From positions 1 through 42,286 of the IMG/VR virus record IMGVR_UViG_3300037069_000862: a DNA stretch of 42,286 nucleotides. One strand, written 5' to 3'. The DNA is from a virus. Below the pieces are notes generated by a model that searched no databases, was not told the DNA's origin, and was given only the letters and a program-made list of their open reading frames with translations. This document shows, piece after piece, positions 12,233-15,048 of this stretch (its first letter is position 1; each line of letters begins with the position of its first letter). The translations under genes and the position numbers were made by a program.

Positions 12233-12263
12233 GGCATAAGTAGTGGCGAATTGCACACCTCTG

Positions 12264-12299
12264 TTGCTAAGCGATCCTTACCAAGGGATGCTTACGACC
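12264..12299 (+). promoter_or_regulatory. Possible plus-strand XRE promoter and operator
   Basis: TTGCTA (12264-12269), 17 bp, then GATGCT (12287-12292) and seven bases to the ATG at 12300. The layout mirrors the repressor promoter. The spacer sits in an imperfect dyad, TAAGC...GCTTA, 12268-12294, with nine of twelve positions matching. The -10 is weak (only its second and sixth bases fit TAnnnT), so this call is tentative. Confidence 0.4.
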
Positions 12300-12629
12300 A
12301 TGGGCGACGCACTAGACCCCGGCGGTTGGCTCAAGGAGCAGATGGAACGCCGGAAGTTGACACAGCGCGACGTGGCGCAGGCGGTCGGACTCCGCGAGCA
12401 AGCCGTCTACTACTGGCTGAGCAACAGGACTGCACCGAAGGATGAGGCCGCGGCAAAGCTCGCGGCGCTGCTCGACGTACCCCAGGTGGAGGTACGGAGA
12501 CGGTTCGGCCTCTGGGTGCCGGAAGACGGCGACCCTGAGCCGGCGCGCAGTACGGCCGAGCTCGAAGAGATCATGCGCGACCTGACCGCGGTACTTGAGC
12601 GATTCAGGTTGTGGCGGAGCGGGGACTAG
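12300..12629 (+). CDS. XRE-family regulator (Cro-like, divergent; 109 aa)
   Basis: A helix-turn-helix protein transcribed away from the repressor. The start is ATG 12300 (MGDALDPGGWLKEQMERR), and ATG 12288 would add four residues. The HTH is LTQRDVAQAVGLREQAVYYW, followed by LSNRTAPKDEAAAKLAALL and VPQVEVRRRFGLW; the last 40 residues are an acidic helix (RSTAELEEIMRDLTAVLERF) that could dimerise. As a divergent partner it is likely part of the lytic/lysogenic switch, though roles could be reversed. Confidence 0.78.
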   Translation: MGDALDPGGWLKEQMERRKLTQRDVAQAVGLREQAVYYWLSNRTAPKDEAAAKLAALLDVPQVEVRRRFGLWVPEDGDPEPARSTAELEEIMRDLTAVLERFRLWRSGD

Positions 12630-14379: not shown

Positions 14380-14385
14380 AGTATA
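14380..14385 (-). promoter_or_regulatory. Likely -10 of a leaderless int promoter
   Basis: On the minus strand TATACT (14385-14380) lies six bases before the int ATG, so the transcript would begin at or next to it. A -35 at the best distance would be CCGCGG (14408-14403), which is weak and straddles the proposed attP crossover. Integration would therefore replace the -35 region. Confidence 0.5.
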
Positions 14386-14433
14386 CGTGACATGTTGACA
14401 ATCCGCGGTCGGATCCCCAAGATGGCACGTATA
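14382..14433. other. Candidate attP site (52-bp imperfect inverted repeat)
   Basis: The arms 14382-14405 and 14410-14433 match in 19 of 24 positions when folded, with identical outer ends TATACGTG/CACGTATA and an identical inner ATCCG/CGGAT block. The centre is 14407-14408, bases GG, a non-palindromic dinucleotide as serine integrases require. Size, symmetry and position immediately upstream of int are those expected for a large serine integrase attP. The alternative is a symmetric operator between divergent promoters. Confidence 0.7.
14395..14423 (+). promoter_or_regulatory. Possible Ltp promoter inside attP
   Basis: TTGACA (14395-14400), 17 bp, then CAAGAT (14418-14423) reads toward the Ltp gene. 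A second -10-like TATAAG (14430-14435) lacks a matching -35. The proposed crossover lies in the spacer of the first pair, so integration would separate the -35 from the -10. Confidence 0.4.
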
Positions 14434-14463
14434 AGCTTTCTACAGGGGGAAGGACCCAACATC

Positions 14464-15048
14464 ATGAGTGAGTTCCAGGGCGCGCCGAGTCCGCAGCCCG
14501 TGCAGCACCCGTACCAGCCCAAGCCGCCGAAGAAGCACACCGTCCGCAACGTCATCCTCGGCGTGTTCGTCGGCATGTTCCTCGTGGTCGGTGGCTGCAC
14601 TGCGCTGATCGGTGGCGCCGGCCAGGACGCGAAGGCACCGGTGGACGTCACGTCGAAGGCGGGTACGCCGGTCGCACCGAAGCAGTCCACGCAGCCGTCG
14701 CCGAAGGTGACGCACAAGCCCGCACCGACGAAGCAGAAGCTGACCGCGGGTCAGGAGCAGGCGATCGGGGCGGCGCAGGACTACCTGTCGCTCAAGGCGT
14801 TCTCCCGCAAGGGCCTGATCGAGCAGCTGTCATCCCAGGCGGGCTCGGGCTTCTCGAAGGCCGACGCCACGTACGCCGTGGATCACATCGACGTGGACTG
14901 GAACGAGCAGGCCGTGAAGGCGGCGAACGAGTACCTCGCGATCCAGCACTTCTCCCGGAGTGGTTTGATCGAACAGCTGGAGTCGAGTGCGGGTTCGCAG
15001 TTCACCCACTCGCAGGCTGTGTACGGCGTGACGAAGGCGGGGCTGTGA
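14464..15048 (+). CDS. Ltp-family lipoprotein (superinfection exclusion)
   Basis: This 194-residue protein starts at ATG 14464 with the strong ribosome site AGGGGGAAGGA. A Pro-rich cytosolic N-terminus (28 aa) is followed by a membrane segment, VILGVFVGMFLVVGGCTALI, with a lipobox-like VVGGC at Cys45, then a Lys/Pro/Thr linker. The outer part has two host cell surface-exposed lipoprotein repeats of about 47 residues: AAQDYLSLKAFSRKGLIEQL near 103-122 and KAANEYLAIQHFSRSGLIEQL-type sequence near 152-172. This is the Ltp family, named for phage TP-J34, where it blocks DNA injection by incoming phages. It probably protects the lysogen. Confidence 0.88.
   Translation: MSEFQGAPSPQPVQHPYQPKPPKKHTVRNVILGVFVGMFLVVGGCTALIGGAGQDAKAPVDVTSKAGTPVAPKQSTQPSPKVTHKPAPTKQKLTAGQEQAIGAAQDYLSLKAFSRKGLIEQLSSQAGSGFSKADATYAVDHIDVDWNEQAVKAANEYLAIQHFSRSGLIEQLESSAGSQFTHSQAVYGVTKAGL

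Follow-up and report, generated by a model that had tools for sequence, protein, structure and literature searches.

The gene for a large serine integrase (int) and that for a lipoprotein of the Ltp family diverge from each other, about 90 bp apart, in an actinobacterial-type phage, and an imperfect inverted repeat lies between them. We wanted to determine whether this repeat is the phage attachment site (attP) of the integrase and what integration at such a site does to the promoters of the two flanking genes. The window, by which we mean the whole stretch of DNA analysed, is an IMG/VR virus record of 42,286 bp that is classed as linear and in which head, packaging and tail genes are present. 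The integrase encoded beside the repeat has catalytic, recombinase and zinc ribbon domains; the zinc ribbon reached a Pfam score of 23.1, slightly under the cut-off of 25.3, with four out of four cysteines present. The protein is only about 30% identical to integrases from deposited phages.

The attP of a large serine integrase is expected to be an imperfect inverted repeat of about 45–50 bp close to int, with a central dinucleotide that is not palindromic. The repeat found here, which is 52 bp long and lies 8 bp upstream of int and 30 bp upstream of the Ltp gene, has these properties. It reads TATACGTGACATGTTGACAATCCGCG and GTCGGATCCCCAAGATGGCACGTATA on the two sides of a dyad centre located between the G at 14407 and the G at 14408. 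The preliminary description had reported a 52-bp repeat with this centre next to the integrase, and we found it as reported; its count of 19 matching arm positions also stands, but the denominator of 24 has to be replaced by 26 (25 without the central GG), since 24 drops the next mismatched pair as well. The outer eight pairs are perfect and the central pairs are unpaired. Among even-centred palindromes of this arm length it is the top-scoring one in the whole window, and near int there was no better palindrome candidate. The features of the locus are collected in Table 1.

Table 1. Features of the int–Ltp intergenic region and its flanking genes (window coordinates)
Feature	Position	Strand	Remarks
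Predicted attP, imperfect inverted repeat of 52 bp	14382..14433	.	19/26 pairs; counterpart in 15 relatives
Predicted crossover dinucleotide GG (CC on the int strand)	14407..14408	.	Dyad centre; centre palindromic in 0/16 sites; phiJoe crossover also predicted GG
int-side half-site	14382..14406	-	Outer motif CACGTATA, inner motif TTGTCAA
Ltp-side half-site CAAGATGGCACGTATA	14409..14433	+	16-mer identical in the 81% relative (G001)
Large serine integrase (int), 481 aa	12928..14373	-	Pfam Resolvase, Recombinase and Zn ribbon; PHROG 95 integrase
Ltp-family lipoprotein, superinfection exclusion	14464..15048	+	PF07553, PHROG 4980
Putative int -10, TATACT	14380..14385	-	6 nt before ATG; conserved
Possible Ltp -10, TATAAG	14430..14435	+	By position; weak
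Candidate Ltp ribosome-binding site GGGGGAAGG	14445..14453	+	By sequence; CTACAGGGGGAA retained in G001

Profile searches of IMG/VR with one-sequence and two-sequence profiles recovered an 81% identical integrase (G001) and about 25–30 more, down to about 37% identity. Sixteen sites were compared (the window, G001, L112, L114, L115, L116, L118–L122, L125, L126, L138, L140 and L142), and the palindrome occupied essentially the same position in all 16 genomes, that is in the phage and in 15 relatives with integrase identity down to about 50%. The site of G001 aligned without gaps, with both arms kept and the middle altered. In most relatives the best palindrome within 240 bp upstream of int was centred exactly 22 bp upstream of the sequence TAnACT. 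The in-register dyad score of the 16 sites averaged 15.8/26, compared with about 7 at offsets of 1–6 bp. Searches with the int-side pattern matched G001 only, and the 15-mer AAGATGGCACGTATA, when searched in viral contigs, was found in G001 alone, apart from chance matches. The Ltp gene was present across the site solely in the four closest phages (the window, G001, L112 and L138); the other relatives had the same palindrome site with different neighbour genes in place of Ltp. Since the site accompanies relatives that do not have Ltp, the palindrome travels with int.

The two arms changed together. Within genomes the arms matched each other better than across genomes: the observed value was 251, whereas permutation gave a mean of 214 (sd 7.5, p <= 5e-5, 16 sites, with L112, the poorest fit at 11/26, shifted by 2 bp for this analysis), and the same p <= 5e-5 was obtained with the 13 sequences that remained without near-duplicates. 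The clearest case was position 22, where the window and G001 have G in each arm and nearly all other sites have C in each; positions 19–22 from the dyad centre were near-invariant in both arms. A centre that is never palindromic is expected, because an asymmetric dinucleotide sets the direction of integration, as described for Bxb1 (PMC3642061). Half-site co-variation and a never-palindromic centre, used together, can call the attP of a serine integrase from sequence alone. Two further observations concern variation among these sites. The central dinucleotide is GG in the window (14407–14408) and CC at L004:123–124 on the same strand, with integrases that are 81% identical; this difference would reverse the polarity of integration at a common attB or point to separate attB sites. 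The attP of a 70% relative (L112:5900–6010) has one arm of ACGTA type and one of AGGTGT type, as if it stood between two recognition types.

As a benchmark we used the attP of Streptomyces phage Joe (phiJoe), whose identity integration has confirmed (PMC5311408) and whose position is given in KX815338. The dyad score peaked exactly at the annotated dinucleotide GG, with 17/26 pairs, 18 bp upstream of int. Both sites are thus imperfect inverted repeats of about 50 bp, a short distance upstream of the gene for a serine integrase, with GG at the centre. They differ in the spacing to int (18 bp in phiJoe and 8 bp here), in the number of pairs (17/26 and 19/26), in sequence and in gene neighbours, and the confirmation by integration is that of phiJoe. 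The minimal attP of Bxb1 is 48 bp long; its symmetric extreme flanks are essential for binding, those near positions 19–23 being needed for binding of the C-terminal domain, and its asymmetric central dinucleotide sets polarity (PMC3642061). The site described here resembles it in having symmetric extreme flanks (positions 19–22), but the dinucleotide of Bxb1 is GT and not GG, and the likeness is in layout. The layout of this attP is ordinary and its sequence is new. The defined 52-bp site and its distant integrase make up a candidate orthogonal integration tool.

Integrated relatives had lost the dyad. In the isolate genomes L084 and L093 the int-side half adjoins DNA for LLAALNTGHEGGC, a motif of TadA/CpaF ATPases (in Nonomuraea the uninterrupted tadA gene reads GAEVVDLLAALNTGHEGGCGTLHANT), and the dyad score drops to background, 8/26. 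Related prophages carrying the repeat intact had been named beforehand as the finding that would speak against an attP, and in both of these the palindrome was lost. In a third isolate record, G014, which shows the opposite junction, tadA is truncated after EVTQL at 36.6 kb and joined to a phage-like half; this junction lies 42 kb from the G014 integrase, which is about 84% identical to those of L084 and L093, and its reading assumes that both ends belong to one prophage. The integrases of this sister group are about 51–54% identical to that of the window, and the junctions suggest that its attP is split as predicted, with attB within tadA. The three junctions do not fix the crossover base in the tadA group, and the dinucleotide of the window phage need not equal that of this group. 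The intact dyad in the window agrees with the earlier proposal that the record represents an unintegrated molecule.

Taken with the common register, the co-varying arms and the phiJoe benchmark, these results make it highly probable that the large serine integrase of this phage uses 14382–14433 as its attP, with predicted cleavage at GG and exchange of half-sites with a host attB, as had been proposed. The same palindrome, which has a divergent gene on each side, a -10-like hexamer at either end and a Cro/C1-type HTH gene nearby, might instead be a repressor operator for the divergent int and Ltp promoters, with attP located elsewhere. We consider this very improbable: the palindrome follows int and not Ltp, being kept in relatives that lack the latter, its centre is never palindromic, unlike that of an operator, the dyad is missing from integrated relatives, and the surroundings of int offer no better attP candidate. 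From base composition, 0.12 palindromes of such a score are expected by chance per 42-kb window, so that a fortuitous repeat might be conceived of, but the expectation within the 92-bp int–Ltp intergenic gap is 2.6e-4, and, with relatives sharing both the register and the co-variation of the arms, this explanation has a negligible probability. The comparison with relatives refutes it.

For the attP, we propose that the arms would be bound by an integrase dimer. Its zinc-ribbon domain would probably contact the outer motif CACGTATA, and its recombinase domain probably the inner part, CAA(G/C)ATG/TTGTCAA. The integrase would then cut around GG, which is assigned as the crossover by symmetry, and half-sites would be exchanged with a host attB also carrying GG. 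In the resulting prophage each of the two genes, int at one end and Ltp at the other, would retain its own half-site.

The preliminary description went further and proposed that int and Ltp both receive new -35 regions on integration, and that int expression and lysogen immunity would then depend on the attachment site. The -10-like hexamers are indeed present at the two palindrome ends, and, by position, the -35 regions do fall at the crossover: at 17-bp spacing they are 14403–14408 for int (CCGCGG, minus strand) and 14407–14412 for Ltp (GGTCGG, plus strand). However, these hexamers match TTGACA at 1/6 and 0/6 positions, and a promoter scan called no sigma-70-type promoter at either side. Of the two -10 candidates, that of int, which lies in the arm, is conserved as sequence; that of Ltp is TATACA in G001 and is not preserved in other relatives. 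Both attP and attB must share the crossover dinucleotide, predicted here to be GG. Each -35 hexamer consists of its own half-site plus this shared GG, and therefore both would be unaltered by recombination; integration would swap only the sequence beyond about -36, although a spacing of 18 bp would allow a change of one base. The int -10 is retained in integrated relatives.

Statements on an integrase promoter overlapping attP were found in the literature for phiC31 and Samy only. In phiC31 attP lies within the int promoter region, as it probably does here, and int is still expressed once the phage is integrated (PMC11784100), which speaks against a dependence of int expression on the attachment site; the likeness to phiC31 is in the position of attP. 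In phage Samy, where attP is likewise upstream of int, integration separates int from a predicted promoter upstream of the att repeat and so alters its promoter context (PMC12924846); this favours an exchange of promoters, as does the change of sequence upstream of about -36, but unlike in Samy the -10 stays with int here. A coupling of att and the int promoter is thus already known. With the -35 hexamers unchanged and the int -10 kept, we regard the exchange of -35 regions as a control of int and immunity as unlikely. The term lysogen immunity is itself a misnomer for Ltp, which is a superinfection-exclusion lipoprotein (PHROG) and not a repressor. The HTH gene noted above, at 12243–12629 and convergent with int, likely encodes the lysogeny repressor.

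The most interesting part of the locus, in our opinion, is the overlap of the attP arm with the putative int -10. In 15 of the 16 sites the sequence TAnA(C/G)T stands at +22 relative to the dyad centre, and in L112 at +24, with the start codon 6–8 nt downstream; in the window the start codon follows 6 nt past the -10, and int is therefore probably leaderless. On the int side T23 is invariant and T28 near-invariant across the 16 sites, whereas the far arm does not have these residues, a sign of what may be a second constraint on this arm. In our judgement it is about as likely as not that, in this integrase group, the arm on the int side also serves as the -10 element of a leaderless int promoter, kept 22 bp from the crossover, such that the integrase would repress itself through its recombination contact. 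Bound integrase should then repress its own promoter in attP and, once the phage is integrated, in the hybrid site as well. If real, this overlap would provide a simple autoregulation independent of the integration state.

No attL, attR or attB was found for the window phage or its closest relatives. Scans of genome contigs with the integrase and the two-sequence profile returned zero relatives, and the opposite junction was not found in the outermost bases of L074 (the closest isolate relative), L078, L088 and L095, records that are trimmed at gene ends. The G001 contig is circular: its ends share a 127-bp repeat, as those of circular contigs from an assembly at k = 127 typically do, and the assembly break falls 4 bp past the dyad centre. 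The probability of a random break within 4 bp of this centre is about 9/47,775; reads from integrated phage would make a branch in the assembly graph at this break.

The tadA fragment in L084 and L093 extends for only about 40 bp before other DNA, and therefore other elements seem to have inserted there too. By eye, several tyrosine-recombinase-like genes seem to lie before the 40-bp tadA remnant in L084:1–3800, where another element is apparently inserted in tadA beside the serine integrase. In L101:3–2182 (IMGVR_UViG_2934069824_000002, 34.5–36.7 kb) a truncated tadA is flanked by a prophage and by a second, different serine integrase gene, so that a single tadA gene seems to have received two elements with serine integrases.
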